Source of the DNA: Pigmentiphaga humi
GTDB taxonomy: Bacteria; Pseudomonadota; Gammaproteobacteria; Burkholderiales; Burkholderiaceae_B
Direction of reading: 5' to 3'
Length of the DNA stretch: 64,000 nt
Assembly (NCBI RefSeq): GCF_900606115.1
Contig: NZ_UWPJ01000005.1
Span: 62,001 to 126,000, forward strand
Positions within the stretch are counted from its first letter, which is position 1; every line of letters begins with the position of its first letter. The notes under the pieces were generated by a model. It did no database searches. It saw nothing but the letters and a program-made list of their open reading frames with translations, and was not told where the DNA came from. Made by a program: the position numbers and the translations under genes. This document shows positions 16,655 through 43,010 of the stretch, in pieces.

Positions 16655-16735
16655 GGCCCCCCCTACGCGCTTACGCGCGCCCCCCGGGGGGCGGCACTGG
16701 CGGACCGGCGGAGCCGGATCCGCTGTGCCCTGGGG
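16655..16735 (+). repeat. Dispersed structured intergenic element, copy A
   Basis: About 80 bases, starting immediately after the Bug stop codon: a C-run, CTACGCGCTTACGCGCG, a C6/G6 hairpin, then a long stem-loop. The inner stem is GCGGACCGGC with GCCGGATCCGC (one bulged A), and the outer stem is GGCAC with GTGCC. Near-identical copies lie at 38045 and 42933, in the same orientation and always just 3' of a gene. No coding potential is seen. Likely a terminator, processing or REP-like element. Confidence 0.8.
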
Positions 16736-16816
16736 ACTCAACGCGCTTCGTGGGTTGATTCGATTGCTGGATTGGGAAGCAGGGAAAAGAAATGTGCTGT
16801 AGAGAAGGAGAGCAGT

Positions 16817-18139
16817 ATGTTGTCGCGCGAGAAGAATGAGCGGTTGTGCCGCGTGGAGGGCGAGGCGCCGATGGGGGCGTTGATGCGCCGGTTCTGGCTG
16901 CCGGTTTGCCTGGCCGAGGAAGTGGCCGAGCCGGACGGCGCGCCGGTTCATGCGCGCCTGCTCGGCCGGGATCTGGTGGTGTTCCGGGACAGCGAGGGCC
17001 GCGTCGGCGTGCTGGACGAGAAATGCCCGCACCGGCGCGTCTCGCTGGTCTACGGGCGCAACGAGGAAGGCGGCCTGCGCTGTCTCTACCACGGCTGGAA
17101 GATCGACGTGCAGGGCCGGGTGCTGGAGATGGCCTCCGAGCCCGCGGCCACGCCCATGCTGTCCAAGGTCCGCACCACGGCCTACCCGGTACAGGAATGG
17201 GGCGGCATGGTATGGACCTTCCTGGGCAAGGAAGAAGATGCTCCGGCGTTCACCCCTCCGCCATGGGCGCCGACGCGCGACACCAAGGTCGCCATCGCCA
17301 AGATCCTGCTGCCCTGCAACTGGGCCCAGATACTGGAAGGCGCGATCGACTCGGCGCACAGCTCCAGCCTGCATTCGTCGGACTTCGTGCCGGCCAAGGT
17401 CGCGGGCGCGGAGGCGACCGCGAAGAACTGGCTGCGCCCCAGTACCGACAAGGCGCCGCGCATGCAGGTGGACCGCACTTCCTACGGCTTCCGCTACGCG
17501 GCGATCCGCCGCCCCATCGAAGACGCCGACACCCAGGACTACGTGCGCTCGACCGTATTCGTCGCGCCCTTCACCGTGCTGGTGCCGCCCAACAACCTCT
17601 ACAACGTCGCCAACGTCAACGTGCCGATGGACGATACCTCCACGGCCTTCTATTTCCTGGCCTGGGGCCATCCGGCCAAGACGCCCGACACCGAGACCTG
17701 GCGCCGCTTCCTGGGCGCGCAGACCGGCGCCGACCTCGACGAACGCTATCGCCCGCGGCGCAACCACGAGAATCGCTTCTGGCAGGACCGCCAAGCGATG
17801 AAGGCGGGCAATTTCACCGGGATCACCGGCTTTCCCAACCAGGACATCGCCATGTGGGTGACCATGGGGCCGCTGGCCGACCGCTCGGAGGAACGGCTGG
17901 GCTCCAGCGACCTGGCCATCGTCGAGTTCCGGCGCCGCATGCTGTCGGCGCTGGACGAATTCGCGGCGGGCGCCGAACCGGTCGCGCTGGGCGGCAATAC
18001 GGTTTCGCCCGAAGTCTGTTCCTTCCAGGCCATCGTGCCCAAATCGATAGACTGGCGGGCGTACCGCGCCCGCTACGTTTGGGACGACCTGCCGGACGGC
18101 CGCCAGCTGGAAAGCAACTACCAGACGGGCATGCGCTGA
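16817..18139 (+). CDS. Rieske 2Fe-2S aromatic ring-hydroxylating oxygenase, phthalate 4,5-dioxygenase type
   Basis: 440 residues from the ATG at 16817, preceded by AAGGAG; an in-frame ATG at 16772 lacks a ribosome site. The Rieske cluster ligands are Cys70 and His72 (KCPHRRVS) and Cys89 and His92 (RCLYHGW). The mononuclear-iron region contains [13 protein letters not shown], the family's H-x4-H motif following an acidic residue. Such oxygenases use O2 and electrons from a reductase to hydroxylate an aromatic ring. The closest named type appears to be phthalate 4,5-dioxygenase or a related demethylase. No reductase gene is adjacent, so electrons must come from elsewhere. The Gfo/Idh/MocA dehydrogenase 61 bases downstream matches the next step of the phthalate pathway. 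Confidence 0.9.
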
Positions 18140-18200
18140 AACCGGCGCGTCCCGCCGCTGCGCCCTCCCCGGCGCACCTACTTTCCCAAGGAGATTCCGC

Positions 18201-19382
18201 ATGCCCCCACAGCTGCGACTGGGCATAGCCGGCCTGGGCCGCGCCTTTTCGCTGATGCTGCCCACCTTCCTGGCCGACGCCCGCGTCGCGTTGGCGGCCG
18301 CCTGCGACCCGCGCGCCACGGCGCGCGAGCAGTTCGCGCGCGACTTCGGCGCGCCGGTGCACGAAGACGTCGAGGCGCTGGCCGCCGACCCATCCATCGA
18401 CGCGATCTACATTGCCAGCCCGCACCAGTTCCATGCCCGCCACACCGAGATTGCCGCCGCCCACGGCAAGCACGTGCTGGTGGAAAAACCGATGGCGCTG
18501 AGCCTGGACGAATGCGACCGGATGATCGCCGCGTGCGAGCGCGCCGGCGTATGCCTGATCGTGGGCCACTGTCACAGCTTCGACCTGCCCTACCTCAAAA
18601 CGCGCGAGTTGATAGACCGCGGCGAGTTCGGCGCGGTGCGCATGATCCACGCGCTGAACTACACCGACTACCTGTACCGTCCACGCCGGCCCGAGGAACT
18701 CGATACGGCCGAGGGCGGCGGCGCGGTGTTCAGCCAGGCGGCCCACCAGGTGGACATCGTCAGGCTGCTGGCCGGCTCGCGCCCCACCGTGCTGCGCGCG
18801 GCGCTGGGCAGCTGGGATCCGCGCCGGCCGACCGAAGGCGCCTATTCGGCCATGCTGTGGTTCGAGTCCGGCGCCTATGCCTCGCTTTCCTATAGCGGCT
18901 ACGGGCATTTCGATTCCGACGAATGGATGGACTGGACCGGCGAGATGGGCAACCGCAGATCGCCCGAGGACTACGGCGGCGCGCGCCGCAAACTGGCCGC
19001 GGCCGCCTCGCCGGAGGAAGAGGCCCGGGCCAAGGCCGCCGCGACCTATGGCGGTCCGGCCTACCGGGCGCCCGCTGCCGACGAGGCGCGCCGGCGCTAC
19101 CAGCACTTCGGACCCATCATCGTGTCGTGCGAACGGGCCGATCTGCGGCCCATGGCGGACGGCATCCTGGTCTATGGCGACGAACAGCGCCGCCGCGTCC
19201 CGCTGTCGGCGCCGGCCGTGCCGCGGCACGAGGTGATCGACGAATGGGTGGACGCCATCCGCCTCGGCGTCGCGCCGCGCCACGATGGCCGGTGGGCCAA
19301 GGGCACGCTGGAGATCTGCCTGGCGATGCTGGATTCGGGCGCGCGCCGGGCCGATGTGGCGTTGCGCCATCAGCCTGCCTGA
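18201..19382 (+). CDS. Gfo/Idh/MocA family oxidoreductase, possible cis-dihydrodiol dehydrogenase
   Basis: 393 residues with a good ribosome site (AAGGAG at about 18188). The N-terminal Rossmann fold begins [19 protein letters not shown], and the family signature [14 protein letters not shown] is present at about 97-110. The C-terminal domain carries [21 protein letters not shown] with the catalytic His. It is an NAD(P)-dependent dehydrogenase. Relatives next to phthalate dioxygenases act as phthalate 4,5-cis-dihydrodiol dehydrogenases, and the position after the Rieske gene supports that, but ring-cleavage and decarboxylase genes are missing here. Confidence 0.85.
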
Positions 19383-19398
19383 CCCGTCCCCGCCGGTC

Positions 19399-19429
19399 TT
19401 GCCGCGGCATGGCAGGTTGTGCCTATAAT
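19399..19429 (+). promoter_or_regulatory. Predicted sigma70 promoter of the iron-uptake operon
   Basis: A perfect TATAAT (19424-19429) is preceded by TTGCCG (19399-19404) with a long 19-base spacer. A Fur box starts five bases after the -10, so iron repression would act at this promoter. Confidence 0.55.
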
Positions 19430-19433
19430 TGAG

Positions 19434-19448
19434 TGAGAATCATTTTCA
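19434..19448. promoter_or_regulatory. Fur box
   Basis: TGAGAATCATTTTCA fits the 7-1-7 Fur palindrome (TGATAAT, one base, ATTATCA) with one mismatch between its arms. It lies between the predicted -10 box and the ECF sigma start at 19464, the usual place for Fur control of FecI-type sigma genes. Confidence 0.75.
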
Positions 19449-19463
19449 TCAACACATAGGCCG

Positions 19464-19997
19464 ATGCCGCCGGCATCCATGACTCCCTCACAGCCCCATC
19501 CCCAGGACACCGTACATCGGCTATACCGTGAACACCATGCCTGGCTGGTGCAGCTGCTGCGCCGCAAGCTGGGCGACATGGAGCATGCCGCGGACCTGGC
19601 GCACGACACGTTCGAACGCATCATGCGGGCCGACCTGGGTCCGGTGGTGGCGGCGCCCCGTGCTTACCTCACCACGGTCGCCCAGCGCCTGGCGGCCAGC
19701 CATTTCCGCCGGGCCGCCGTGAGCCGGGCCTTCCAGGAAGCGCTCGCGGCCCGTCCGGAGGCCATCGCGCCGTCACCCGAACAGCAGCTGCAATTCCAGC
19801 AGTCGCTGCTGGCCGTCCTGGACGTTCTCGACGGACTGCCGCTGCGCACCCGCCGGATCTTCCTGCTCGCGCAGTTCGACGGCCTGCCGCACAACGAGAT
19901 CGCGCAACAGCTGGGCATCACGCCCAACGCCGTGCAAAAGGCGGTCGCGCGCGCCCTGGAGCACTGCTATCTCGCCATCTACCCGTCCGCCGCGTGA
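19464..19997 (+). CDS. FecI-type ECF sigma factor
   Basis: 177 residues. Sigma region 2 is visible as LYREHHAWLVQLLRRKLGDM and AADLAHDTFERIM (about 15-55), and region 4 as LPLRTRRIFLLAQFDGLPHN and IAQQLGITPNAVQKAVARAL (about 125-165). The iron-starvation group of ECF sigma factors directs transcription of an adjacent TonB receptor gene once the receptor signals ligand binding through FecR. A second in-frame ATG at 19479 is possible. The Fur box upstream indicates expression under iron limitation. FecR follows 13 bases after the stop. Confidence 0.92.
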   Translation: MPPASMTPSQPHPQDTVHRLYREHHAWLVQLLRRKLGDMEHAADLAHDTFERIMRADLGPVVAAPRAYLTTVAQRLAASHFRRAAVSRAFQEALAARPEAIAPSPEQQLQFQQSLLAVLDVLDGLPLRTRRIFLLAQFDGLPHNEIAQQLGITPNAVQKAVARALEHCYLAIYPSAA

Positions 19998-20010
19998 GCC
20001 CGCCTCGCCG

Positions 20011-20988
20011 ATGAACGACAGCACGGCGCCCGACGGCCAACCCGAACTGGCCGCCATCCGCCAAGCGGCGCGCTGGCTGGCGCGGCTGCAGGCGGATCGG
20101 TCGCCGGCCGCCCTCGAAGCCTGTCTGGACTGGCGTCGCGCGCGGCCGGAACACGAGCTCGCATGGCAACGCATGAACGCGCTTTCCAGCCAGTTCAGCG
20201 CGCGCGGCACGCCCATGGACCCGGCGGTGGCCAGCGACACCCTGCATCGCGCCACGGCTCGGGACGGCCGCCGGCGCAACCTGAAACGGCTGCTGGGCAT
20301 CACCGGCGCCAGCGCGCTGGCCTGGTCGCTCGGCGGCGAACGGGCGGTGCGCGTCCAACTCGCCGACTACCGCACCGCGACCGGAGAACGGTCGCACCAC
20401 GTCCTGCCCGACGGCACCCGGCTGGCGCTCAATACCGGCAGCGCCGTCGACATCCGCTTCGATGACGCGCAGCGTTCGGTCGTGCTGCGCGCCGGCGAGA
20501 TCCACGTCCAGACCGCCGCCGACCGCCTGGGCCGGCCGTTCCGGGTGCAGACGCGCGCAGGGACGCTGGCGCCGGTGGGCACGCGCTTCCTGGTCCGCGA
20601 ACTCGACGACGGCGGGGCGGTCCGGCTCGGCGTACTGGAAGGCGCCGTCGATATCCGGCCCGACCACGGCAGCGTCCGCATCGCGGCGGGCCGGCAGGCC
20701 GATTTTTCCGCGCGCGCCATCGATGCGTCCGTCGCGCTCGGCCGGTCGGCCGCCGCCTGGCTCAACGGCATGCTGGTGGCGGACCGCATGCCGCTGCGGG
20801 CGTTCCTGCACGAACTGGGCCGCTACCGTCCAGGCATCCTGGCCTGTGACGATGCCGTCGCGCAGCTGCCCGTCGTCGGCGCGTTCTCCATCGACGATAC
20901 CGACGCCTCGCTGGCCCTGCTGGCGCAGACGCTGCCGCTGCGCCTGGCGCGGCACACCCGCTATTGGGTGCGCGTGCTGCCCGCCTGA
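20011..20988 (+). CDS. FecR family anti-sigma / sigma regulator
   Basis: 325 residues. The N-terminal cytoplasmic anti-sigma part carries the DUF4880 motif ARWLARLQADRSPAALEACL and RARPEHELAWQRM (about 10-55). A short, weakly hydrophobic membrane segment (about 92-112) follows, then the periplasmic FecR domain with ATGERSHHVLPDGTRLALNTGS and LGVLEGAVDIRP (about 120-220). It relays the signal from the N-terminal extension of the TonB receptor to the ECF sigma factor, with which it forms an operon. Confidence 0.92.
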   Translation: MNDSTAPDGQPELAAIRQAARWLARLQADRSPAALEACLDWRRARPEHELAWQRMNALSSQFSARGTPMDPAVASDTLHRATARDGRRRNLKRLLGITGASALAWSLGGERAVRVQLADYRTATGERSHHVLPDGTRLALNTGSAVDIRFDDAQRSVVLRAGEIHVQTAADRLGRPFRVQTRAGTLAPVGTRFLVRELDDGGAVRLGVLEGAVDIRPDHGSVRIAAGRQADFSARAIDASVALGRSAAAWLNGMLVADRMPLRAFLHELGRYRPGILACDDAVAQLPVVGAFSIDDTDASLALLAQTLPLRLARHTRYWVRVLPA

Positions 20989-21033
20989 GCGGAATGCCGC
21001 GCCAAGGCGCGGACCGCCGGAAAACTTGTAACA

Positions 21034-21058
21034 GAAACGGCGGATCCCGCGGCCTCGT
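21034..21058 (+). promoter_or_regulatory. Candidate ECF-sigma promoter before the TonB receptor
   Basis: AACAGAAAC with GAAAC at 21034-21038, a 17-base spacer and CGT at 21056-21058 resemble the GAAAC/CGT pattern of ECF promoters. It sits in the gap after fecR, where FecI-type sigma factors normally act. The match is short and could be chance. Confidence 0.3.
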
Positions 21059-21127
21059 GCGTAAAGACAGGTAAGCGCCGTGCGCGGCGCATGCCCTTTC
21101 CACCTCCGATCCAGGAGCGCGTTCGAC

Positions 21128-23671
21128 ATGCCCCGCCTCGCCGGCCCTCTTTCCGCAGCCCTACACAGACGCCTGCGCCCCGCCGCTTTTGCCGCTCGCC
21201 TCGGCCTGGGCGCGCTGGTCCTTGCCCATGCGGCCGGCACGCCGACCTGGGCGCAGGCCGACGTCCAGGCCCGGCGCCATTATGCGATCGAAGCCGGCAG
21301 CCTGAACGAAGTGCTGGGCCGCTTCGGCGAACTGGCCGGCGTCATGATCGCCGCCGATCCGGCCTTGACCTTCGATGCGCGCAGCCCCGGCCTGCGCGGA
21401 AACTACACCGTTGCCGAAGGCCTGGAAAAGCTGCTGTCCGACCGCGGCCTCGAAGCCGTGCCCGCCGGAGGCGGCTATCGGCTGCAACGCAGGCCGCCTC
21501 CCCCCGTACCGGCGCCCGCGCCGCTGGCGCCGGTGCTGGTGGTGGGCCTGCGCGACAAGACCGAGGACGCCCACCATGCGGCGGCATCGGAGCACGTCAT
21601 CACGCGCGAACAGATGGATCGCGTCCAGGCCACGTCGGCGCGCGACATCTTTGCCGAGACCCCTGGCGTGTGGGTCATGAACGGACGCCAGAACCCGTCG
21701 CTGAACGTCAACATCCGCGGCCTGCAGGACTCCACCCGCATCAACATGATGGTCGACGGCGCGCGCCAGGGCTTGCAGATCGTCAGCGGCCACAGCGGCG
21801 TCAACCAGTTCGTGTTCGTCGACCCCGAACTGCTGGCCGACGTTTCGATCGCCAAGGGGCCGACTTCCGGCGCCCACGGGGCGGCCCAGATCGGCGGCGT
21901 GGTCGACCTGCGCACCCTCGAGGCCGACGACTTGCTGCGCGACGGCCAGACCCAGGCTTTCCGCGTACGCGGCACCGTCGGCAACAGCGGCTACGGCGCC
22001 TCCGGCAGCGCCGCCGCGGCGTTCCGGCTCGACGAGCGCTGGGATCTCGCCACCGCCGTCAGCCGGCGCCGTTCGGACGACTATAAAGCGGGCACCAGCG
22101 ACCCCGGCCTGTACAGCGTGGACGGCACGCTGGACCGCAGCCGCGTGCGGCCGGGCGACGAAGTCTACGGCACCTCGCAAGACCTGTGGTCGGGCCTGTT
22201 CAAGGCCGGCCTGCGGCTCGACGGCGGACACCAGATCAAGCTGGGCGCGACCTACTACGAGAATACCTATGGTCAGCAAGGCGCCAACCGCGCGCTCGCC
22301 AGCAACGACCCCGACCGCACGGGCACCGACGGCGGGCCGCCGCGCGGCCGCATGCAGACGCGCGGCCGCGACAACCAGGCCCGCGCGACCACCTACACCG
22401 CGAAGTACTCGTGGACGCCCGCCGGCAACCCGTGGATAGACCTGCGCGCCAACCTGTGGCGCTCGTCCACCCACGTGCGGCGCCCCGAGTACGACACCGC
22501 GTACAAGACGACGAGCTGGGGCATGGAGCTCTACAACACCAGCCGCTTCGACGTGCCCGTGCTGGGCAGCGCGCGCCTGACCTACGGGACCGAATACTTC
22601 GAGGACGACGGCGGCACCGAGTCGCTCAAGACCGACCTGACGCGCAATCCCGATGTCGCGATCAACGCATGGGCCGGCGAACTGACCGGTTCCGGCAAGC
22701 GCCGCGTGGGCAGCCTGTTCACCGAGCTTACGCTGATGCACGGCGACTGGCTGGAAGTGACCGGCGGCCTGCGCCGCGACATCTACAACATGCAGGGCGA
22801 CGGCTACTACATGAGCCCGGTATCCGGCCAGGGCAAGGCGTTCTTCACGCTGAAGAACCGCGAGACCCACGTCAGTCCGCGGCTGACGCTGGCGGTCATG
22901 CCCGCCTCGGGCGTGCAGCTTTATGCCGCCTACCACGAAGGATTCCGCCCGCCGGCCATTGCCGAGGCCATGCTCAGCGGCACGCACGGCAACGTGCTGC
23001 AGTTCAACCCCAATCCCAACCTCAAGCCCGAGTACGCGCGCAACCGCGAGCTGGGCGCCAGCTTCACCTTCGACGGCGTGCTGAGCGCCAGGGACAAGCT
23101 GCGGGCCAAGGCCGCGTACTTCGCCAACCGCGTGGACGGCTTCATCGACTACGGCGAAGTCAGCAACTACCTCGGCACCTACACCACTTTCGTCAACCTG
23201 GACCGCGCCTATTTCCAGGGAACGGAATGGTCGCTGTCCTACGACAACGGCAGCGCGTTCCTGCAGGCCAGCTACACCTACTTCAGCGTGCTGCGCTTCT
23301 GCACGGCGGGCGTATGCAGCGACAACGTCGGCGGCATCATGGGTTCGCCCTTCATCCCGTCGAAGGAAAAAATGGCGCTCACCGCGGGCGTCCGGCTGTT
23401 CGACCGCGCCGTCACGCTGGGCGCGCGCGTGCGGCGCGACGGCCGCCGCGCCGCCGCCAACGACGACTCCGCGGGCTTCGGCAACGTCCAGACCTTCTGG
23501 CCCGCCTACACCGTCTACGACCTGTTCGGCAGCGTGCAGTTGAACCGCTCCACCCAGCTCGGATTCAGCATCGAGAACCTGCGCGACACCTACTACATCG
23601 ACGCGCTCGGCTCCGATCTGGTGCCCGGGCCGGGCCGCGTGTTCAAAGCGCTGCTGACGATGAACTTCTAG
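21128..23671 (+). CDS. TonB-dependent outer-membrane receptor with STN signalling domain, haem-receptor type
   Basis: 847 residues from the ATG at 21128 (AGGAG about 10 bases upstream). The signal peptide (about 1-42, ending PTWAQA) is followed by a secretin/TonB short N-terminal (STN) domain (about 50-105, AIEAGSLNEVLGRFGELAGV), the plug (about 140-260) and a beta-barrel ending in phenylalanine (ALLTMNF). The barrel contains FRPPAIAEAML and, 18 residues on, NPNPNLKPEYARN. This resembles the FRAP/NPNL motifs of haem and haemoglobin receptors, so haem or a haem protein is the best guess. The STN domain and the FecI/FecR pair upstream show it is also the signal input of the system. No bhuSTUV-like transport genes follow, so it is not the bhu locus. 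Confidence 0.9.
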   Translation: MPRLAGPLSAALHRRLRPAAFAARLGLGALVLAHAAGTPTWAQADVQARRHYAIEAGSLNEVLGRFGELAGVMIAADPALTFDARSPGLRGNYTVAEGLEKLLSDRGLEAVPAGGGYRLQRRPPPPVPAPAPLAPVLVVGLRDKTEDAHHAAASEHVITREQMDRVQATSARDIFAETPGVWVMNGRQNPSLNVNIRGLQDSTRINMMVDGARQGLQIVSGHSGVNQFVFVDPELLADVSIAKGPTSGAHGAAQIGGVVDLRTLEADDLLRDGQTQAFRVRGTVGNSGYGASGSAAAAFRLDERWDLATAVSRRRSDDYKAGTSDPGLYSVDGTLDRSRVRPGDEVYGTSQDLWSGLFKAGLRLDGGHQIKLGATYYENTYGQQGANRALASNDPDRTGTDGGPPRGRMQTRGRDNQARATTYTAKYSWTPAGNPWIDLRANLWRSSTHVRRPEYDTAYKTTSWGMELYNTSRFDVPVLGSARLTYGTEYFEDDGGTESLKTDLTRNPDVAINAWAGELTGSGKRRVGSLFTELTLMHGDWLEVTGGLRRDIYNMQGDGYYMSPVSGQGKAFFTLKNRETHVSPRLTLAVMPASGVQLYAAYHEGFRPPAIAEAMLSGTHGNVLQFNPNPNLKPEYARNRELGASFTFDGVLSARDKLRAKAAYFANRVDGFIDYGEVSNYLGTYTTFVNLDRAYFQGTEWSLSYDNGSAFLQASYTYFSVLRFCTAGVCSDNVGGIMGSPFIPSKEKMALTAGVRLFDRAVTLGARVRRDGRRAAANDDSAGFGNVQTFWPAYTVYDLFGSVQLNRSTQLGFSIENLRDTYYIDALGSDLVPGPGRVFKALLTMNF

Positions 23672-23685
23672 CCCGGATCCGCCCC

Positions 23686-25581: not shown

Positions 25582-25589
25582 GCGCCCAA

Positions 25590-25607
25590 GTCGCCCTTCG
25601 GGGCGAC
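25590..25607 (+). other. UUCG-tetraloop hairpin between the two surface-protein genes
   Basis: GTCGCCC, TTCG, GGGCGAC forms a perfect 7-bp stem closed by a C(UUCG)G tetraloop, one of the most stable RNA hairpins. It starts nine bases after the upstream stop. No T-run follows directly, so it looks more like an mRNA-stabilising or attenuating structure than a terminator. Confidence 0.5.
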
Positions 25608-25655
25608 GGCCGGCGAGGCAGTGCCGTTTTTCCCCTTCTCCAAGGAAACCCGATC

Positions 25656-27281: not shown

Positions 27282-27308
27282 AAAAGCCGGCGGTCAGTAG
27301 TCGCCGGC
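27280..27308 (-). terminator. Rho-independent terminator of the tetrapyrrole methylase gene
   Basis: Read on the minus strand: GCCGGCG, a 9-base loop, CGCCGGC and then six T. The hairpin overlaps the 3' end of the methylase gene itself and abuts the stop of the converging surface-protein gene. Confidence 0.75.
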
Positions 27309-28875: not shown

Positions 28876-28894
28876 CCGGTATTTCGGACAGAAC

Positions 28895-28936: not shown

Positions 28937-31933
<2,997 letters not shown>

Positions 31934-31953
<20 letters not shown>

Positions 31954-32554: not shown

Positions 32555-32689
32555 ATTTGATGAGCGTCACCGAACTGCGCCATTGCACCGGAGCAGCATT
32601 CCCCATGAATGCCATTGGTTCCCCAATGCGGCGCGCCACGCATGCTAGCTCATCCGTAGAATATGGGCGCAGCGAATTAATTGGCCTGC

Positions 32690-33244
32690 TTATTCGCCCC
32701 AGCTGCGCACCGCCACCCGCCATAGCGCCGATGCCTGGCGCGGCCCCAGCGTCCGGTCGCCGAGCGACAGCAGTTGCAGTCCGCCGGCGGCGGCGGGCAG
32801 CAGCACGCCGTCCTGCTCGACCGCGACCACCGCGCCGGCGCCCAGCGCGGTGTTGTAGAGCTCGTGCCAGCTGAACAGGCAGACGTAGCCATCGCGCGCC
32901 TCGGCCGCCACGACCAGTTGCTTGGACCGCGAACGCGGCAGCGCAGCCATGCCGGCCAGGTCCAGCAGCTTGGCGAGCGGCACGCCGCGCAGCCGGCCGA
33001 TTTCGCGGATCGGCCGGCCCGAGAAACAGCACACTTGCACCGGGCCGGTCTGGAAATCCGCCAGGCGGACCAGTTCGGCGGCGTCCAGCCGCAGCGTGGA
33101 CCCCGGCCCCTCGACCACCAGGGAATCCGAGAAATGCCCGCCCCGCAGCCCTCGCTCCCCGGCGCCGCCGTCCGCGGAAGGGGCGCTCTCCGTCGCCCGG
33201 CCGCCCCAAGATGGAGAATCCCTGCTCACCAGCCAATCGGACAT
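32690..33244 (-). CDS. Molybdopterin-binding-type small protein, divergent from fdnG
   Basis: 184 residues with no signal peptide. The segment LRLDAAELVRLADFQTGPVQ and VCCFSGRPIREIGRLRGVPL, then YVCLFSWHELYNTALGAG and a closing ALWRVAVRSWG, resemble the sulfite-oxidase-type molybdopterin-binding fold, but a full catalytic domain is too large for this length. It is divergent from the formate dehydrogenase operon and shares its control region, including a ModE-like palindrome. A role in handling or sensing the molybdenum cofactor for FdnG is a reasonable guess and no more. Confidence 0.6.
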   Translation of the reverse strand: MSDWLVSRDSPSWGGRATESAPSADGGAGERGLRGGHFSDSLVVEGPGSTLRLDAAELVRLADFQTGPVQVCCFSGRPIREIGRLRGVPLAKLLDLAGMAALPRSRSKQLVVAAEARDGYVCLFSWHELYNTALGAGAVVAVEQDGVLLPAAAGGLQLLSLGDRTLGPRQASALWRVAVRSWGE

Positions 33245-33287
33245 TCGGGTTCCTTGCGCCGACTGCGCCTAACGTGCAGCCAACTTT

Positions 33288-33311
33288 CGTTATGTTCTAT
33301 TAAATATAACG
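33288..33311. promoter_or_regulatory. ModE-like operator
   Basis: CGTTATGTT (33288-33296), six bases, AATATAACG (33303-33311): a 9-6-9 palindrome with one mismatch, matching the CGTTATAT...ATATAACG pattern of ModE (molybdate-responsive regulator) sites from memory. It lies between the two divergent genes, about 20 bases before the fdnG promoter. Confidence 0.6.
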
Positions 33312-33322
33312 CAGAAATTCCC

Positions 33323-33337
33323 GCACAAAGTTTGTGC
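33323..33337. promoter_or_regulatory. Perfect palindrome overlapping the fdnG -35 box
   Basis: GCACAAA, G, TTTGTGC is a perfect 7-1-7 inverted repeat whose right arm contains the predicted -35 hexamer TTGTGC. It is well placed as an operator. The binding protein is unknown. Confidence 0.45.
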
Positions 33338-33360
33338 CTATTGATTTCGGGTCCTATACT
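33332..33360 (+). promoter_or_regulatory. Predicted sigma70 promoter of the fdn operon
   Basis: TTGTGC (33332-33337), a 17-base spacer and TATACT (33355-33360) point toward fdnG, whose start is at 33452. Confidence 0.6.
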
Positions 33361-33451
33361 CATCCCTAGTAATCGACAACCCGCCCGCATTGCCCTCGCC
33401 CCCCGGGCGGCAGGCGGACGGGATCTCCACCAACGGGAAAGGAGTGCTTTC

Positions 33452-36400
33452 ATGGTCAGCATGAACCGGCGCCAATTCTTCAAGGTGACAGGAGCCACGC
33501 TGGCAGGATCGAGCCTCGCGCTGTTGGGGGTCGCCCCCGACATCGCCCTGGCGGAAGTCCGTCAGTACAAGCTGGCGCGGATGACCGAAACGCGCAATAC
33601 CTGTCCGTACTGTTCGGTCGCCTGCGGGATTCTGATGTACGGCCTCGGCGACGGGGCCAAGAATGCCGAGGCGAGCATCGTCCACATCGAAGGCGACCCC
33701 GACCACCCGGTCAATCGCGGCACCCTCTGTCCGAAGGGGGCTGCGCTGATCGATTTCATCCACAGCCCCAACCGCCTGAAGTTCCCGGAATATCGCGCAG
33801 CCGGCTCCGACAAGTGGCAGCGCATTTCCTGGGACGAAGCCCTGACGCGCATCACCGCGCTGATGAAGCAGGACCGCGACGCCAACTTCGTGGCCAAGAC
33901 GGCCGACGGCAAGACCGTCAACCGCTGGCTGACCACCGGCATGCTGGCCGCGTCGGCCAGCAGCAACGAGGTCGGCTACATCACCCACAAGGTCGTCCGC
34001 AGCTTCGGCATTCTCGCATTCGACAACCAGGCGCGTGTCTGACACGGCCCGACGGTGGCAGGTCTTGCCCCGACGTTTGGCCGTGGAGCGATGACGAACC
34101 ATTGGGTCGACATCAAGAACGCGGATCTGGTCCTGATCATGGGCGGCAATGCCGCCGAGGCGCACCCCTGCGGCTTCAAGTGGGTCACGGAGGCGAAGGC
34201 GCACAACAAGGCGAAGCTGATCGTCGTGGATCCGCGCTTCACGCGCTCGGCATCCGTGGCGGACTACTACGCGCCCATACGCACCGGGACGGACATCATC
34301 TTCCTGGGCGGCGTGATCCGCTACCTGCTGGAGAACGACAAGATCCAGCACGAGTACGTGAAGAACTACACGGACTTCTCGTTCATCGTGCGCGAAGACT
34401 TCTCGTTCGACGAAGGCCTGTACTCGGGGTACAACGCCGAGAAGCGCAGCTATGACAAATCGAGCTGGGACTACGAGCGCGGCGAGGACGGCTACGTCCG
34501 CACCGACCCCACGCTGGAGAACCCGCGCACTGTCTACCAGCTGCTGAAGAAGCACTATTCGCGCTACACGCCCGAGACCGTCGAACGCATCTGCGGCACG
34601 CCCAAGGACAAGTTCCTGCGCGTGTGCGAAATGATGGCCTCCACCGCCGGCACCGACCGCGCGATGACGATCCTCTACGCCCTGGGCTGGACCCAGCATT
34701 CGATCGGCTCGCAGATCATCCGCACCGGCGCGATGCTGCAGCTGCTGCTGGGCAACATCGGCGTGGCCGGCGGCGGCATGAACGCGCTGCGCGGCCACTC
34801 CAACATCCAGGGCCTGACCGATCTGGGGCTGATGTCCAACCTGCTGCCGGGCTACCTGACGTTGCCCAACGAGCCGGAACAGGACTTCGACGCCTACATC
34901 GCGGCGCGCACGCAAAAGCCGCTTCGCCCCAACCAGCTCAGCTATTGGCAGAACTACAAGAAGTTCCACGTCAGCCTGATGAAGGCCTGGTGGGGCGATG
35001 CCGTCTCGGCCGAGAACAACTGGGGCTACGACTACCTGCCCAAGCTCGACAAGCTGTACGACATGCTGCAGGCCTACGACCTGATGCAGCAGGGCAAGAT
35101 GAACGGCTACATCTGCCAGGGCTTCAACCCGCTGGCCGCGGCGCCGAACAAGGCCAAGCTGACCGAGGCGTTCTCCAAGCTCAAGTTCCTCGTCATCATG
35201 GACCCGCTGGCCACCGAGACCTCGGAATTCTGGCGCAACTACGGCGAGCACAACGACGTCGATCCCGCCAAGATCCAGACGGAAGTCTTCCGCCTGCCCA
35301 CCACCTGCTTCGCCGAGGAAGAAGGCGCGCTGGTCAACTCCGGGCGCTGGCTGCAATGGCACTGGAAGGGCGCCGAGCCCCCGGGCGAGGCCCTCAGCGA
35401 CATCGAAATCATGTCGCGGCTCTTCCTGCGCCTGCGCGAGCAGTACCGCAAGGAAGGCGGCGCCTATCCCGATCCCGTCGTGAACCTGTCCTGGCCCTAC
35501 GCCACGCCGGCCAGCCCGACCGCGGCCGAACTGGCCAAGGAATATTCGGGCAGGGCGCTCCAGGACCTGGCCGACCCCAACGACCCGACCAAGATGCTGC
35601 GCAAGGCGGGCGCGCCGCTCGCCGGCTTCGGCGAGCTGCGCGACGACGGCTCCACCATCAGCGGCTGCTGGATCTACGCCGGCGCCTGGGGCCCGACCGG
35701 CAACCTGATGGCGCGCCGCGACAACGCGGATCCGACCGGCATCGGCCAGACGCTGAACTGGGCCTGGGCCTGGCCGGCCAACCGCCGGGTGCTGTACAAC
35801 CGCGCCTCCTGCGACCTCGAAGGCAAGCCTTACGACCCCAGGCGCAGGCTGGTCTGGTGGAACGGCAAGGCCTGGGCCGGCGCCGACGTGCCCGACTACA
35901 AGGCCGACGAGGATCCCGCCAAGGGCATGGGCCCCTTCATCATGAACCCCGAGGGCGTGGCGCGCTTCTTCGCGCGCGGCGGCATGACCGAAGGCCCCTT
36001 CCCCGAACACTACGAACCCTTCGAGAACCCGCTGGGCTACAACCCGCTCTACCCGAAGGCCCAAGGCGTCACCAGCAACCCGGCGGCGCGCGTGTTCAAG
36101 GGCGACCTGGCAGCCATGGGCAAGGTGCAGGATTTCCCGTACGTGGCCACCACGTACCGCCTGACCGAGCACTTCCACTACTGGACCAAGAACGTGCGGC
36201 TCAACGCCATCCTGCAGCCGGAACAGTTCGTCGAGATCGGCGAATCGCTGGCCAGGGAGCTGGGCATCGCCAACGGGTCCCAGGTCAAGGTCTCGTCCAA
36301 CCGCGGCTACATCAAGGCCGTCGCGCTGGTCACCAAGCGGATCAAGGCCCTCACGGTCGAAGGCAAGACCGTGCACCAGGTCGGCATTCCCATCCACTGG

Positions 36401-36520
36401 GGTTTCGTGGGCATTGCCAAGCCAGGCTTCCTGACCAACACCCTGACCCCCTTCGTGGGCGACGGCAACAGCCAGACACCGGAATTCAAGTCGTTCCTGG
36501 TGAAGGTGGAAAAGGTATAG
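33452..36520 (+). CDS. fdnG: Formate dehydrogenase (N/O type) alpha subunit, selenoprotein
   Basis: 1022 residues when the in-frame TGA at 34040-34042 is read as selenocysteine (Sec197); the frame is the same on both sides. The sequence around it, DNQARV[13 protein letters not shown], is the conserved Sec-His site of E. coli FdnG/FdoG (Sec196). A Tat signal ([10 protein letters not shown]) at the N-terminus directs export. The 4Fe-4S ligands begin at Cys51 (CPYCSVAC...GTLCPKGAA), and the bis-MGD molybdopterin domains follow ([44 protein letters not shown]). It oxidises formate to CO2 in the periplasm. The start is fixed by AAAGGAG at 33438-33444. The beta gene follows after 10 bases. Confidence 0.96.
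34040..34085 (+). promoter_or_regulatory. UGA selenocysteine codon with SECIS hairpin
   Basis: Directly after the TGA, CACGGCC (34043-34049) pairs perfectly with GGCCGTG (34079-34085). At the tip GGCA (34057-34060) and TGCC (34066-34069) enclose the loop GGTCT. This is the bacterial SECIS design; the GGUCU apical loop equals that contacted by SelB in E. coli formate dehydrogenase mRNAs (from memory). Confidence 0.93.
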
Positions 36521-36530
36521 GAGCAAGGCC

Positions 36531-37430
36531 ATGTCACTGCAATCCCTGGACATCAAACGCCGCTCGGCCACCACCACGCCGCCGCCCGGCGTGCGCGAGC
36601 CGTCCGTCGGCGGCGTCGCCAAGCTGATCGACGTCTCCAAGTGCATAGGCTGCAAGGCCTGCCAGACGGCCTGTATGGAGTGGAACGACCTGCGCGACGA
36701 AGTCGGCACCAACGTGGGCGTCTACGACAACCCCGCCGACCTGACCGAGCACTCGTGGACGGTCATGCGCTTCTCGGAGTACGAGAACGACAAGGGCGAC
36801 CTGGAGTGGCTGATCCGCAAGGACGGCTGCATGCACTGCGAAGACCCCGGCTGCCTGAAGGCCTGTCCGGCGCCGGGCGCCATCGTCCAATACAACAACG
36901 GCATCGTCGACTTCCACGAAGAGCACTGCATCGGCTGCGGCTACTGCATCACCGGGTGCCCGTTCAACATCCCGCGCATTTCCCAGAAGGACCACAAGGC
37001 CTACAAATGCACGCTCTGTTCCGACCGCGTCGCGGTCGGGCAGGAGCCCGCCTGCGTCAAGACCTGTCCCACCGGCGCCATCGTGTTCGGCACCAAGGAA
37101 GACATGAAACAGCACGCGGCCGAACGCATCGACGACCTGAAATCGCGCGGCTTCGACAACGCCGGGCTGTACGACCCGGCCGGGGTCGGCGGCACCCACG
37201 TCATGTACGTGCTGCACCATGCCGACAAGCCGACGCTGTACAACGGCCTGCCGGAAAACCCGCAGATCAGCCCGATGGTCGCGCTGTGGAAGGGGCTGGC
37301 CAAGCCCCTGGGCGTGGCGGTGATGGCCTTCACCGCGCTGGCAGGCTTCTTCCACTACATCCGCATCGGCCCGAACGAAACGGACGAGGAAGACGAACGC
37401 AGGGCCCGAGAGGAGATGCGCCATGAATGA
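36531..37430 (+). CDS. fdnH: Formate dehydrogenase beta subunit (4 x 4Fe-4S)
   Basis: 299 residues. Four cysteine clusters of ferredoxin type are visible: [38 protein letters not shown] and CTLCSDR...CVKTCP. A C-terminal membrane helix (about 253-275, [18 protein letters not shown]) anchors the subunit on the periplasmic side, as in E. coli FdnH. It passes electrons from FdnG to the cytochrome b subunit. Its end overlaps the fdnI start by eight bases. Confidence 0.95.
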
Positions 37431-38061
37431 ACATGACCGCAAATACGGCTGGATCCAGCGCTACACCGCCAACGAGCGGACCAACCACTGGATCACCGCC
37501 ATCACCTTCGTGTTGCTGGCCCTGTCGGGGCTGGCCCTGTTCCACCCGGCCTTCTACTGGTTGACCAACCTGTTCGGCGGCGGCCCGTGGACGCGCATCC
37601 TGCACCCCTTCGTCGGCGTGGTGATGTTCGTCAGCTTCGCGATCTTCGCGATGCACATGTTCCGCGACAACTTGCTGACCCGGAACGACCGCCAGTGGCT
37701 CAGGCAGATGCCCGACGTGCTCAACAACCGCGAAGACAGGCTGCCCGAAGTCGGCAAGTACAACGCCGGCCAGAAGCTGCTGTTTTACGTGCTGATCCTG
37801 AGCATGATCGGCCTGCTGCTCACCGGCATCGTGATGTGGCGCGCCTACTTCTCCTTCATGTTCCCGATCTGGCTGATCCGCCTGGCCTCGGTGCTCCATG
37901 CGCTGTGCGGCCTGGTCCTGATCTGCTCCATCATCGTGCACATCTACGCCGCCATCTGGGTCAAGGGCTCGATGCGCGCCATGACCCGCGGCACGGTGTC
38001 GCCCGGCTGGGCATGGAAGCACCACCGGGCCTGGTTTAGGAGGCTCCCCCCTACGCGCTGA
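37423..38061 (+). CDS. fdnI: Formate dehydrogenase gamma subunit, cytochrome b556
   Basis: 212 residues with four membrane segments (about 20-40, 60-80, 117-138, 152-175). Haem-ligand histidines are expected in NHWITAITF and in the last helix ([12 protein letters not shown]). It takes electrons from FdnH to the quinone pool in the inner membrane. The final codons (LPPTR and stop) lie inside copy B of the dispersed repeat, so the natural C-terminus has probably been altered by that element. Confidence 0.94.
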
Positions 38062-38130
38062 CGCGCGCCCCCCAAGGGGGCGAAGCGGGTGGACCGGCAG
38101 AGCCGGATCCACCGCTTCCTGGATCTGGGG
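38045..38130 (+). repeat. Dispersed structured intergenic element, copy B
   Basis: Same element as at 16655 and 42933, but with a rewritten stem: inner GTGGACCGGC with GCCGGATCCAC (bulged A) and outer GAAGCG with CGCTTC. Both differ from copies A and C yet remain paired. It begins inside the last five codons of fdnI and supplies its stop. Confidence 0.8.
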
Positions 38131-38539
38131 ACCGACATTGCCGACTTGGGCGGTGTCAGTCAAGGTGGGCGTGATGCTCACACCCCACACTACCGTGGCA
38201 GTGTTCATGCGCTATGTTCATACCGATGATGATCGGGTGCGCCAAGCTGCCAGTTGGTGAGAGTCGAAGCAGAACCTGCAGCAGATGCGGGCGTTCTTTC
38301 TGACCTGGTCAATTCGCCAGACAGTGTCTGGCGAATCTTCGTCATTGTCCGTGACGCAAGCGTATCCCCCGACTGCGGTTTCCCAGACGATATCTTTTCC
38401 GCTCCGAGTTGCCGCCGGCCCGGCTGCGACCGGTCTTAAGAACCCGGTACGCCCCCCGCCTGGGGTATCCTTTCCCCATATAGATACAAGACACACCCCG
38501 CCCCGAACGAACAGTCGAGGGCGCACCCGGAGCCAAGCC
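38062..38539. other. 478-base gap between fdnI and fdhE
   Basis: Holds most of repeat copy B and a perfect 12-bp palindrome at 38312-38336. The in-frame extension upstream of fdhE has no FdhE homology and no start with a ribosome site. No clear promoter is seen; base composition around 38170-38400 is less GC-rich than the flanking genes. Confidence 0.5.
38312..38336. promoter_or_regulatory. Perfect 12-1-12 palindrome upstream of fdhE
   Basis: ATTCGCCAGACA, G, TGTCTGGCGAAT. All twelve pairs match. It could be an operator, a recombination target or a cruciform; there is no T-run after it. Confidence 0.6.
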
Positions 38540-39469
38540 TTGCAGCGCATCCTCTCCAAGGGCGAAATCGAATCGCTGGACCACACCGCCATTCCCCGGG
38601 TCCGCATGCCCGGCCGCGAAACCGTGTTCGCCACCCGCGCAACGCGGCTGCGCCAGCTCGCTCAAGGCCACCCCGTAGGCGGCTACCTCACCCTCATGGC
38701 CGAACTGGTCGACGCCCAGCACGCCGTGCTCGCCCGCTGCGACATGCCCGGCGCCGTCCCCGAGCTCATCGAACGCGCCCAGGCCCACGGCATGCCGCCC
38801 CTGCAAGCCGCCGGCTGGCCGCGCGACCCCTCCTGGACCGGCCTGCTGCGCGAACTCCTGCAGCACCTCGACCATAACGACAAAGTGCCCGAAGAGGCCC
38901 GCCGCATCGCCGCCGACCTGCTGCGCCGGCTCGACCAGGAGACCGGCGCCATCGAAAGCCTGGCCGACGCCGTCCTGGGCGCCGGCGGGGACATCGACGG
39001 CGCCGCCGCCCCCTTCGTCATGGGCGCGCTGCAGGTCTACTGGACCGATCTCGCCATCCGCTTCCCGCCCGGGCATCTGCCCGTCGTCAGCCCCTTCGGC
39101 CTGTGCCCGCTGTGCGGCAGCCTGCCGGTCGCCAGCGTCGTGCGCGTCGGCGGCCAATATGCCGGCTACCGCTACCTGTGCTGCGAACTGTGCTCCACCG
39201 AATGGCACATGGTGCGCGTCACCTGTTCCCACTGCGAAGATACCAAGACCGTGGCCTACCACAACGTCGACGGCGGACCGGAGGGCATCAAGGCCGAATC
39301 CTGCGACAACTGCCACACCTACCGGAAAATTTTCTACCAGGAAAAAGACCTGTACGTCGAGCCCGTGGCCGACGACCTCGCCAGCCTCACGCTGGACGTG
39401 CTGATGGGCGAAGCGGGCTATGCGCGCGCCAGCGGCAACCCCCTGCTCTGGCAAGGCGGCGATGACTGA
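38540..39469 (+). CDS. fdhE: Formate dehydrogenase accessory protein FdhE
   Basis: 309 residues from a TTG at 38540 preceded by GGAG seven bases upstream. This gives exactly the E. coli FdhE length, whereas the open frame further upstream lacks homology. The zinc-finger-like C-terminal half has [30 protein letters not shown] and [16 protein letters not shown] (four CxxC pairs), then [13 protein letters not shown]. FdhE is needed for maturation of exported formate dehydrogenases, interacting with the alpha subunit in the cytoplasm. Its stop overlaps the selA start by eight bases. Confidence 0.94.
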
Positions 39470-40880
39470 GTCCGCGGTACCGGCGCCTGCCGCGCCGGGC
39501 GACATCCCCTCCCTGGACCGGCTGCTCGGCTCCCCCGACATGCAGCCCGCCCTGGATGCCTACGGCCGCACCCGCGTCGTCGCCACGCTGCGCGCCCACC
39601 TCGACGATCTGCGCGCCCAGGCGCGCGCCGGCACCCTGGCCGCCGGCGAAGTGACCGCATCCGCCATCGCGCAGGCCTCCCGGCGCATTCTCGACCAGGC
39701 CTCCCGGCCGCGGCTGCGGACGGTCTACAACCTCACCGGCACCATTTTGCACACCAACCTCGGCCGCGCGCTGCTGCCCGACGCCGCGGTGGAATCCGTC
39801 ATGCGCGCGCTGCGCGCGCCGGCCAACCTGGAATTCGACCTCGACACCGGTGCGCGCGGCGACCGCGACGACCTCGTCGAAGACCTGCTGCGCGAACTGA
39901 CCGGCGCCGAAGCCGCCACCGTCGTCAACAACAACGCCGCCGCCGTCCTGCTCATGCTCAACGCGCTGGCGGACCGTCGCGAAGCCATCGTCTCGCGCGG
40001 CGAACTGGTCGAGATCGGCGGCGCCTTCCGCATTCCCGACATCATGAAGCGCGCCGGGGCGCGTCTGGTCGAGGTGGGCACCACCAACCGCACCCACCCC
40101 TTGGACTACGAACAGGCCATCACGCCGCGCACCGCCATGCTGATGAAAGTCCACTGCAGCAACTATGCGGTCACCGGCTTCACCAAAAGCGTCGCCGCCA
40201 GAGACGTTGCGGCCATCGCCCACGCGCACGGCCTGCCCCTGACCGTAGACCTGGGCAGCGGCACGCTGCTGGACCTGACCCAGTGGGGACTGCCGCGCGA
40301 AGAAACCGTGCGCGAAACCATCGAGGCAGGCGCGGACCTCGTCACCTTCAGCGGCGACAAACTGCTGGGCGGGCCGCAAGCCGGACTGCTTGTGGGCCGC
40401 GCCGACCTAATCCGCAAGATCAAGAAGAATCCCCTCAAACGCGCGCTGCGCGTGGGCAAGCTCACCCTGGCCGCGCTCGAACCGGTGCTGGCGCTGTATC
40501 GCAGCCCGGAATTCCTGCCCGAGCGGCTGACCACGCTGCGCTTGTTCACCCGCCCGACGGCGCGCATCCAGGCGGCCGCCGAACGCCTGTGTCCGGTCGT
40601 GCAACAGGCGGCGGGTGCGGACTACGACGTCCAGGCCGCTCCCATGTCCAGCCAGATCGGCAGCGGCGCCATGCCCACCGACCAGTTGCCCAGCTACGGC
40701 CTGCGCATCCGCCACGCCGGCAAGGGCCGCCCCGGCCGCCACCTCGCCCGGCTCGAGCAACGGCTGCGCGAACTGCCCCGCCCCGTCATCGGACGGCAGG
40801 GCGACGACGCCCTGTGGCTGGACCTGCGCTGCCTGGAAGAACACGACGAAGCCGAGTTCACCACGCAATTCCAGACATGA
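39462..40880 (+). CDS. selA: L-seryl-tRNA(Sec) selenium transferase
   Basis: 472 residues from the ATG at 39462 inside the last codons of fdhE. The PLP-dependent fold shows [17 protein letters not shown] at the N-terminus, [19 protein letters not shown], the [11 protein letters not shown] block and the PLP lysine in [14 protein letters not shown]. It converts Ser-tRNA(Sec) to Sec-tRNA(Sec) using selenophosphate from SelD. The stop overlaps the selB start (ATGA), indicating translational coupling. Confidence 0.96.
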
Positions 40881-42766
40881 TCATCGGCACTGCGGGCCAC
40901 ATCGACCATGGCAAGACGACGCTGGTCAAGGCGCTGACCGGCGTGGATACCGACCGCCTCAAGGAAGAGAAGGTGCGCGGGATATCCATCGAGCTGGGCT
41001 ACGCCTATACGCCGCTGGCCAGCGGCGACGTACTGGGCTTCATCGACGTGCCCGGCCACGAGAAGCTGGTGCACACCATGGCCGCGGGCGCGAGCGGGGT
41101 GGATTTCGGGCTGCTGGTCGTGGCCGCCGACGACGGCGTGATGCCGCAGACGCGCGAGCACCTGGCCATCCTGCAGTTGCTGGGCGTCGCGCGCGGCGCG
41201 ATCGCGCTGACCAAGGCCGATCGCTGTGACGCCGGCCGCCTGCGCGCGGTCGAGCAAGAGATCGCCGGCCTCGTGGCAGGCACCTTCCTGCAGGATGCCC
41301 CCATCCATGCCACCCGCGCCACCGAACCCGGCGACCCCGGCACCGCCCGCCTGAAGGCGTATCTGGACGAGGCCGCCGCGGCCATGCCGGCGCGCCGCGC
41401 GGAGGGCTTGTTCAGGCTGGCGGTGGACCGGGTGTTCTCGCTGGCCGGCCACGGCACCGTGGCCACGGGCACCGTGCATGCCGGCCGCGTGCGGGTCGGC
41501 GACGAACTGCGGCTCATGCCTGCCGGCACGCCCGTCCGCGTGCGCGGCATCCATGCGCAGAACCGTCCCAGCCAGGAAGGCGTGGCCGGACAGCGCTGCG
41601 CACTCAACCTGGCCGGCGTCGGCAAGGACGACCTCGCGCGCGGCGACTGGATCGCCGATGCGCGCTGCTTTCTGCCCACCACCCGCGTGGACGTGGACCT
41701 GTCCTGGCTGGAAAGCGCAGACGGCCCTTTGCGCGGCTGGGCGCCGCTACACGTGCACCTGGGCGCGGCCCACCACGTCGTCCACGCGGTACCGCTGGCG
41801 CCCGACACGCTCGCGCCCGGCCAGCGCGGCCGGGTACAACTGGTGTTCGAACGGCCGGTATGCGCCGTGCCGGGCGATCGCTTCATCGTCCGCAATGCCC
41901 AGGCCAGCCGCACCGTGGGCGGCGGCCGGGTGCTGGACCCCGGCGCGCCCGACCGCAAACGGCGTTCGCCCCAGCGGCTCGCCTGGCTGGACGCCATGGA
42001 AGACTGGCTGGCCGGACGCGGCATCGGCCCCTTGCTGGCGCAGGCGCGCGGGGGCCTGGGCCAACAGGCGCTGGAACGCCTGACCGGCCTGCCGGCGCAG
42101 GCCGTCTCCCTGCCCGAGGATGCGCGATGGGTGGCCCCCGCCGCGCAGGCGCAATCGCGCACGCTCATCGATGCGCGCCTGTGGCGGGAGCTGGGCGAAC
42201 ACGTGCTCGGCCGGCTCGACGCCTACCACGCGCAGACCCCCGACGAACCGGGCCTGGAGGCGGGCCGGCTGCGCCGCATGTGCGCGCCCGCCATGAACGA
42301 GGCGCTATGGCAGGCGCTCGTGGAGAGCCTGCTGGCGCAAGGCCTGGCGGTCCGCAACGGCCCCTGGCTGCATCGGCCGCAGCACGCTGTCGGCCTGGAC
42401 GCGGGAGAGGAAGACCTGGCCGCGCGGCTGCTGCCGCTGCTGGCCGAAGGGCGCTACGATCCGCCCTGGGTGCGCGACCTGGCGCACCTCACCGGTACGT
42501 CCGAAGAACGCGTGCGCCACGTATTGCGCAAGCTGCTGCGCCAAGGGCGCGTGGTCCAAGTGGTGCAAGACCTGTTCTATCACCCGGAACGCATGGCCGA
42601 ACTGGCGGCGCAGGCCGCCCGCCTGGCCCGGGAACACGGCGGCGCCCATGCCACGCATTTTCGCGACGCCACCGGCCTGGGCCGCAAGCGCGCGATCCAG
42701 ATCCTGGAATATTTCGACCGCACCGGCTATACGCGCCGACAAGGGGACCTGCACCTCATGAGGTGA
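40877..42766 (+). CDS. selB: Selenocysteine-specific elongation factor SelB
   Basis: 629 residues from the ATG at 40877. The G domain starts [20 protein letters not shown] and contains [18 protein letters not shown] and the ALTKADR box. EF-Tu-like domains II and III follow (about 170-370), then C-terminal winged helices (about 400-625, ending [20 protein letters not shown] and [11 protein letters not shown]) that bind the SECIS hairpin. It delivers Sec-tRNA to the ribosome at SECIS-marked UGA codons. The only SECIS seen in the window is in fdnG, 6.8 kb upstream on the same strand. Confidence 0.96.
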
Positions 42767-42830
42767 CCTGTCCATGAAACCGGCATGCGCCATCCGGCGG
42801 GTCCGGCTATCATAGGCGCCTCTCTCGAGA

Positions 42831-42925
42831 GGAAGGCATGCGTGCCCGGTGGCACGGCTGGGCTTCAAACCCAGTTGGGGGCGTCAGACGTTCCCAGGTA
42901 GGTTCGACTCCTGCTGTCTTCCGCC
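42831..42925 (+). tRNA. selC: Selenocysteine tRNA, anticodon TCA
   Basis: The gene is 95 nt to the CC (93 nt to the discriminator); the terminal A is not encoded (GCCG). The 8-bp acceptor stem pairs GGAAGGCA with TGTCTTCC. There is a 6-bp D stem (CGTGCC with GGCACG), an anticodon stem CTGGG/CCCAG with loop CTTCAAA (anticodon TCA), a long variable arm and a T arm with loop TTCGACT. The long acceptor stem, long extra arm and TCA anticodon are diagnostic. It lies 64 bases after selB and 8 bases before repeat copy C. Confidence 0.96.
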
Positions 42926-42932
42926 GTATTGT

Positions 42933-43010
42933 CCCCCCCTACGCGCTTACGCGCGCCCCCCAGGGGGCGGCACTGGCGGACTGGCAGAGCCAGATCCGCT
43001 GTGCCCTGGG
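42933..43010 (+). repeat. Dispersed structured intergenic element, copy C
   Basis: Same element as at 16655 and 38045. Inner stem GCGGACTGGC with GCCAGATCCGC (bulged A), outer GGCAC with GTGCC. It follows the tRNA-Sec gene by eight bases, so may end or process the selC transcript. Confidence 0.8.

Follow-up and report, generated by a model that had tools for sequence, protein, structure and literature searches.

The window analysed here, 64,000 nucleotides of the Pigmentiphaga humi draft genome, contains three copies (A, B and C) of a structured repeat of about 80 bp (Table 1). Copy A follows a TctC/Bug receptor gene (Pfam), copy B lies at the end of a frame for an FdnI-like cytochrome b, which has Pfam Ni_hydr_CYTB support, and copy C follows selC. 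The initial annotation had reported three copies at these sites in the same orientation. All three are real and lie on the + strand, and the stems that it named and the paired exchanges among the copies are present as described, but the genome as a whole has about 200 matches to the pattern. Its statement that the copies stand directly 3′ of a gene holds for copies A (Bug) and C (selC), but not for copy B, which overlaps fdnI and contains its stop codon. Because the FdnI frame stops at the TGA within the first-hairpin loop of copy B, the C-terminus of the protein reads ...RRLPPTR.

Copies B and C belong to a region (34037-34095, 34055-44113) with the features of a formate dehydrogenase/selenocysteine locus: SECIS_3, the FdnI-like cytochrome, FdhE, SelA, SelB, selC and AIRS (SelD-like). 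When this fdn-sel region was sought in five congeners of P. humi, the SelD-like part alone was recovered, in four of them, among the best 40 candidates per genome, which were mostly repeat copies. ARAGORN called a tRNA-Arg (22134-22219) and a tRNA-Pro (42057-42152) within long ORFs of the window; both are absent from the Rfam listing and are probably spurious.

Table 1. Repeat copies in the window and their parts
Feature	Position	Strand	Remark
Copy A of the three-hairpin repeat	16657..16735	+	starts 2 nt past the TAG (16652-16654) of the Bug/TctC receptor gene
Copy A, hairpin P1 (CGCGC-TTAC-GCGCG)	16666..16679	+	5 pairs in the fold; inner 4 in the covariation count
Copy A, hairpin P2 (C-run/G-run)	16679..16692	+	consensus structure
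Copy A, long hairpin P3, outer stem GGCAC/GTGCC	16693..16729	+	fold, covariation, consensus
Copy B of the three-hairpin repeat	38046..38125	+	provides the FdnI stop codon
Stop codon (TGA) of the FdnI frame 37423-38061, within the first-hairpin loop of copy B	38059..38061	+	
Copy B, long hairpin P3, outer stem GAAGC/GCTTC	38082..38118	+	fold and covariation
Copy C of the three-hairpin repeat	42933..43012	+	C-run 7 nt past the ARAGORN end of selC (tRNA-Sec)
Copy C, long hairpin P3, inner stem CTGGC/GCCAG	42969..43005	+	fold and covariation

The annotation had recognised no named family in the repeat. In agreement with this, a search of the whole window against Rfam 15 gave no family over copies A, B and C at the gathering score, and copy A had no match even at E values up to 10. 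None of the open-licence papers listed in our literature searches names the three-hairpin repeat.

Copy number and conserved fold

The 21-base core of the repeat, with up to two mismatches, has 207 matches in the 5.1 Mb P. humi draft genome (109 forward, 98 reverse). The reversed pattern, used as control, has a single match in the same genome, which excludes a chance origin of the repeat. We extracted 112 copies from 30 loci, 60 further stretches and the window, leaving out two listed places; the sample is biased towards exact cores because all 100 listed places were exact. The long hairpin is present in 93 of the 112 copies; the other 19 are either truncated or composite, or run off the end of a contig. 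A covariance model built from the 93 copies yielded at least 150 matches in the P. humi genome, where the copies score 76 to 109 bits.

At least ten P. humi contig ends (on C4, C7, C11, C15, C23, C24, C28, C40, C44 and C53) are no more than about 260 nt away from a copy, as though the assembly had broken at the repeat. Some copies (L004, L008, L023, L041, L048, L061, L081) are dimer-like: in these, the left arm of the long hairpin is followed by a second unit made up of a C-rich lead, a hairpin and a CCCCTCAAGGGG-type hairpin. Behind subsets of copies the 3′ flanks show a few kinds of short similar extensions, which are GGGTGTCTTGGATTG-like, AACCCAACGCGCTTCGTGGG-like or AACATTCGCTTGCGTGAGG-like (e.g. 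L047, L081, L084, L086 and L037, L019, L087).

Each copy consists of a C-run, a small hairpin (P1), a C/G hairpin (P2) and a long hairpin (P3). P1 is a GC hairpin of 4-5 bp with the loop TTAC or TGAC, whose variable base is T in 59, G in 50, C in 2 and A in 1 of the 112 copies; P3 is built around CCGGC-RRA-GCCGG. RNAalifold, without being given the structure, returned the same three hairpins with 22 pairs, lacking 42-79, 48-74 and 49-73 of the 25 pairs that we had named. The single copies of the window fold more stably than shuffled sequences, with z values of -2.2, -3.9 and -3.7. In the single-sequence fold of copy A the G-run pairs with the first C-run and not with the C-run of P2. In the single folds of copies B and C the first C-run pairs with a 3′ GGG to form an outer closing stem, which we rejected: its outermost pair is missing in 27 of 93 copies.

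The annotation had argued that paired positions change together. In the 93 full-length P. humi copies 97.2% of the cells are paired, compared to 91.8% in the shuffles and no more than 47.2% with the partners slid. Changes on both sides occur in 7 of the 25 pairs and amount to 147 double-change cells, against 43.9 in the shuffles. The number of double-changed pairs itself does not exceed the shuffles (mean 6.2; 7 was reached by 116 of 500), and the 14 further pair types fall short of the 18.0 in the shuffles, because a few stem types dominate. The weakest pair in this set is 48-74, unpaired in 35 of the 93 copies.

Covariation was also found across genera. The set comprised 63 matches, 53 of them distinct, taken from 49 loci in other genera. 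Here 18 of the 25 pairs are double-changed, with 96 such cells against 25.8 in the shuffles, 94.1% of the cells are paired, and none of 500 shuffles reached any of five covariation measures, in an alignment that leans to the model because it was fitted to it. Weak pairs are one at the P2 foot (unpaired in 22 of 53) and two pairs within P3 (29 and 15 unpaired). The covariance model and genome search that the annotation had proposed as a check were run; they gave matches in Achromobacter denitrificans and Bordetella genomosp. 13.

We also asked whether wobble pairs favour one strand, which would have argued for selection on RNA. This proof was rejected because there is no bias within the P. humi genome, where, read in the sense direction, 9 cells are G-U and 10 C-A. 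Across genera 32 cells are G-U and 3 C-A, in the model-fitted alignment, which may favour G-U. Covariation alone cannot separate selection on RNA from selection on single-stranded DNA.

Position relative to genes

Gene context was derived with a home-made six-frame coding model for 106 P. humi copies lying away from locus ends. There were 52 sense copies between co-directional genes, 21 behind a gene facing another and 15 antisense copies between co-directional genes; of the rest, 3 lay in divergent gaps, 11 were within called ORFs and 4 remained unplaced. A start between -15 and 22 nt from a co-oriented stop codon was found for 67 of the 91 classified copies (67 of the 73 downstream of a sense gene), with a median spacing between stop and repeat of 5 nt. 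If copies were placed at random in the same non-coding space, 5.7% would be sense copies no more than 22 nt from a stop and 18% would fall in divergent gaps, where 3 of 91 were observed. The 3′-end preference in the sense orientation that the annotation had noticed at three genes is supported by the larger set, with 52 sense against 15 antisense copies in co-directional gaps. Core-bearing copies less than 450 nt apart are tail to tail in 11 of 11 pairs, a count that excludes head-to-tail dimers whose second unit has no core.

Of all 112 copies, 78 lie downstream of a sense gene and are free of overlapping ORF calls. The stop codon lies inside the repeat in 13 of these, at about 0-15 nt in 54, at 16-22 nt in 5 and farther away in 6; the REP-type position, with an upstream stop within about 15 nt, is thus taken by 67 of the 78, the 13 internal stops included. 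The first-loop TGA is the stop codon at 13 of the 112 P. humi copies, that of fdnI included, so thirteen proteins end in PPTR. This explains a recurring C-terminus that annotation would read as ordinary protein sequence.

The same placement was seen in six other genomes, where contexts were assigned for 97 of 104 loci (120 copies): 61 copies were co-directional sense, 29 lay between facing genes, 12 were antisense, 5 divergent, 12 in an ORF call and 1 unplaced. The start fell between -15 and 22 nt from the stop in 85 of the 90 sense copies.

Distribution, probable mobility and possible roles

In a survey of 19 genomes the repeat was matched in 15, and no match was found in G135, G001, G015 and G053. 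Pigmentiphaga kullae, Pigmentiphaga sp. NML030171, Alcaligenaceae bacterium SAGV5 and the metagenome-assembled genome Burkholderiales bacterium 67-32 have at least 150 copies each. Fewer were found in Verticiella sediminum (58), Roseateles saccharophilus (45) and Achromobacter denitrificans (32), and counts were low in Ideonella azotifigens (20) and Bordetella genomosp. 13 (nine). The five congeners of P. humi have 0 (G135), 37, 43, at least 150 and at least 150 copies. At least 25 of 151 genomes of the family and at least 14 of 399 of the order were matched; these are lower bounds because the best candidates alone were scored (29 and 11 per genome, respectively), and members of the G008 family without a match in this candidate-limited survey may still carry copies. 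The matches of the order-wide survey came from family f1 and, within the order, from f49, f3 and f19. Of 15 genomes in the same genus as Bordetella genomosp. 13, 5 carry copies.

Related copies stand in tandem at L196 (G045) and L211 (G005). The stretch G045:C15:34931-35521 (L196/L210/L222) holds five related elements in tandem with a spacing of about 124 bp, possibly a VNTR. A 4.1 Mb genome from the genus that includes Bordetella genomosp. 13 has a divergent single copy (L264, 1501-1593), lying in what by eye is an rpoA/rplQ gap.

Orthologous gene ends were compared by matching the upstream flanks of 109 P. humi copies to the relatives' loci. Orthologs were found for 29 of them, in 42 pairs, of which 25 had the repeat at the same place, 2 had a variant and 15 were scored as having none. 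On reading, 7 of these 15 had an antisense or variant repeat nearby, and 8 (6 sites) had nothing in the 150 nt shown. Presence is over-counted here because the loci had been chosen for containing a copy; in the pairs where another copy explains the choice of locus, the figures are 8 repeat, 2 variant and 15 none. The flanking genes are 73-96% identical, and the intergenic gaps are too diverged for insertion junctions to be read at the nucleotide level.

The stem types also differ between genomes. In P. humi GGCAC/GTGCC was found in 43 of 100 copies and GATGC/GCATC in 7 of 100, the latter accounting for 65 of 135 in the others; at one gene end (L010) three other genomes have GATGC and P. humi has GAAGC. 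Ten copies, seven in P. humi (L012, L014, L022, L042, L053, L057, L065) and three in P. kullae (L105, L175, L191), carry an insert of about 80 bp of BRE type at the loop of P2; the insert is preceded by the left portion of the host copy and followed by the start of the host P3. This composite is itself multi-copy. The copy-free congener, the differing orthologous ends and the ten BRE-nested copies indicate that the family is probably mobile or gene-converting.

We estimate the probability that the three-hairpin family is a REP-like mobile structured repeat at about 0.9. Its copies would spread in trans or by gene conversion through some enzyme, and a copy would be transcribed as the first bases past the stop codon. 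Since the hairpins would be transcribed right after the stop codon, they may act on the message tail, as stop-proximal E. coli REPs and 3′ REPs are reported to do. We give roughly even odds to the hairpins affecting the message in a way on which selection acts. Such an effect appears to be the most likely reading, with purely selfish DNA as its main rival; stabilisation or processing of the RNA is a possible candidate role.

A purely selfish repeat would have its hairpins as the single-stranded DNA substrate of a transposase, without benefit to the cell, and its stop-proximal position would reflect target choice together with the loss of harmful insertions. The failure to find the repeat in congener G135, its patchy occurrence elsewhere, the nested and composite copies and the wobble pairs without strand asymmetry within the P. 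humi genome fit this explanation, and a DNA hairpin substrate equally predicts compensatory change. It is harder to reconcile with the tight spacing from the stop, although targeted insertion would fit this as well, and with the distribution of Y1_Tnp (PF01797), the best-known REP enzyme. No match to this family was found at E values up to 0.001 in the P. humi draft genome, which is 98.85% complete, whereas the same search, as control, gave matches in 5 of 14 other genomes; in the family sample Y1_Tnp was present in 2 of 25 scored carriers against 30 of 126 others, carriers being taken from the best 29 candidates per genome. On balance we consider pure selfishness a serious but less probable explanation.

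The annotation had also suggested a terminator. A terminator or Rho-linked end signal, acting through Rho loading at the C-rich 5′ part or through strong hairpins that stop the polymerase behind the gene, would be in line with the location behind genes and a tRNA (selC), the rarity of copies in divergent gaps, the tail-to-tail close pairs and a slight T-enrichment of the 25 nt behind the repeat (22%, compared to 15% behind control stops and 17% in control gaps overall). Yet no T-tract is conserved among the copies behind P2 or P3, and there is no terminator-like site at copies A, B and C; one lies about 150 nt behind copy B (38275-38291). A crude detector found canonical terminators at 13 of 73 repeat-bearing gene ends and at 14 of 83 controls; being equally common at both, they are neither replaced nor attracted by the repeat. 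By eye, an ordinary terminator follows some copies (L003, L028, L032), and congener G135 scored no copies. The repeat does not look like a conventional intrinsic terminator, and in that sense the suggestion was not supported; an end signal of the wider kind is improbable.

Returning to the message-tail reading, a broader and more tentative proposal is that of an order-wide family which spreads by targeting stop codons and, without a known REP transposase, gives hundreds of unrelated genes a standard structured tail, tuning the termination of translation or the decay of mRNA. We consider this doubtful in its full form. If true, the installed tail would sometimes bring the stop codon and the last residues (PPTR) with it. 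The family offers a testable case, in environmental strains, of REP-like spread with no RAYT found, and a testable case of gene regulation by stop-proximal copies. Both questions can be approached because there are several genomes with at least 150 copies, a sharp anchor at the stop codon, strong compensatory change and a copy-free congener.

Comparison with BRE, Bor and REP repeats

BRE repeats, described by Hot et al. (2011, PMC3110155), number 1 to 29 per genome and are mostly intergenic elements of betaproteobacteria; according to that paper, locus 3 of B. pertussis, behind lexA, has a tandem BRE pair. The three-hairpin repeat has the same traits (about 90 bp, mostly intergenic, sometimes in tandem, several betaproteobacterial families). 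Both are GC-rich elements of about 80-90 bp in which a C-run, a GC hairpin, a C6/G6 hairpin and a third hairpin follow one another, but they differ in sequence, and in number, with up to 207 pattern matches against the 1 to 29 of BRE. A lexA search of 23 genomes gave one weak match for R1 (31 bits, L225) and no tandem repeat of 80-90 bp. Among ten further genomes, a 4.0 Mb genome had two 82-bp repeats in tandem behind lexA (L303), which we infer from Table 3, locus 3, of Hot et al. (PMC3110155) to be BRE. Both lexA-site copies have T5-T6 behind the C/G hairpin; the three-hairpin repeat has no conserved T-tract.

That the three-hairpin repeat might be a BRE copy or close relative is suggested by the equal size, the common order of parts, the betaproteobacterial intergenic location and weak scores of our covariance model on both L303 copies (10 to 14 bits, E 0.007 to 0.065 in 3.6 kb). 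However, the same model gives 76 to 109 bits for the P. humi copies, and alignment of copy A with the L303 BRE is barely above shuffles (z 1.6). Moreover, P. humi has a separate BRE-like repeat: the lone repeat at L085 aligns with the L303 BRE at z 29, and the insert nested in L012 at z 8.6. BRE identity is contradicted at the sequence level, and we regard it as very improbable. A remote common origin of the two is possible because the order of parts is the same.

Bor repeats of Bordetella (Petrillo et al. 2006, PMC1590033) are also stem-loop repeats near coding regions, in a related genus. They differ in length, being 26-30 bp long compared to about 80 bp here.

The annotation's proposal of a mobile or REP-like element was upheld as regards signs of mobility and REP-like habit, but neither Y1_Tnp in the P. 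humi draft genome nor a conserved end tag was found. No conserved GTAG or CGTC end tag was found across the relatives examined; CTAC precedes P1 in P. humi and part of the relatives, and others have e.g. CGAA (L198) or CGGA (L201). E. coli REPs within 15 nt of a stop codon are described as causing ribosome stalling and reduced translation (PMC12306157). Removal of 3′ REPs reportedly shortens the mRNA half-life. The three-hairpin repeat is larger, with three hairpins over 80 bp against the single 20-40 bp palindrome of E. coli REP/BIME, and shares with it a high copy number, a palindromic build, an extragenic location and a share of copies within 15 nt of the stop codon.
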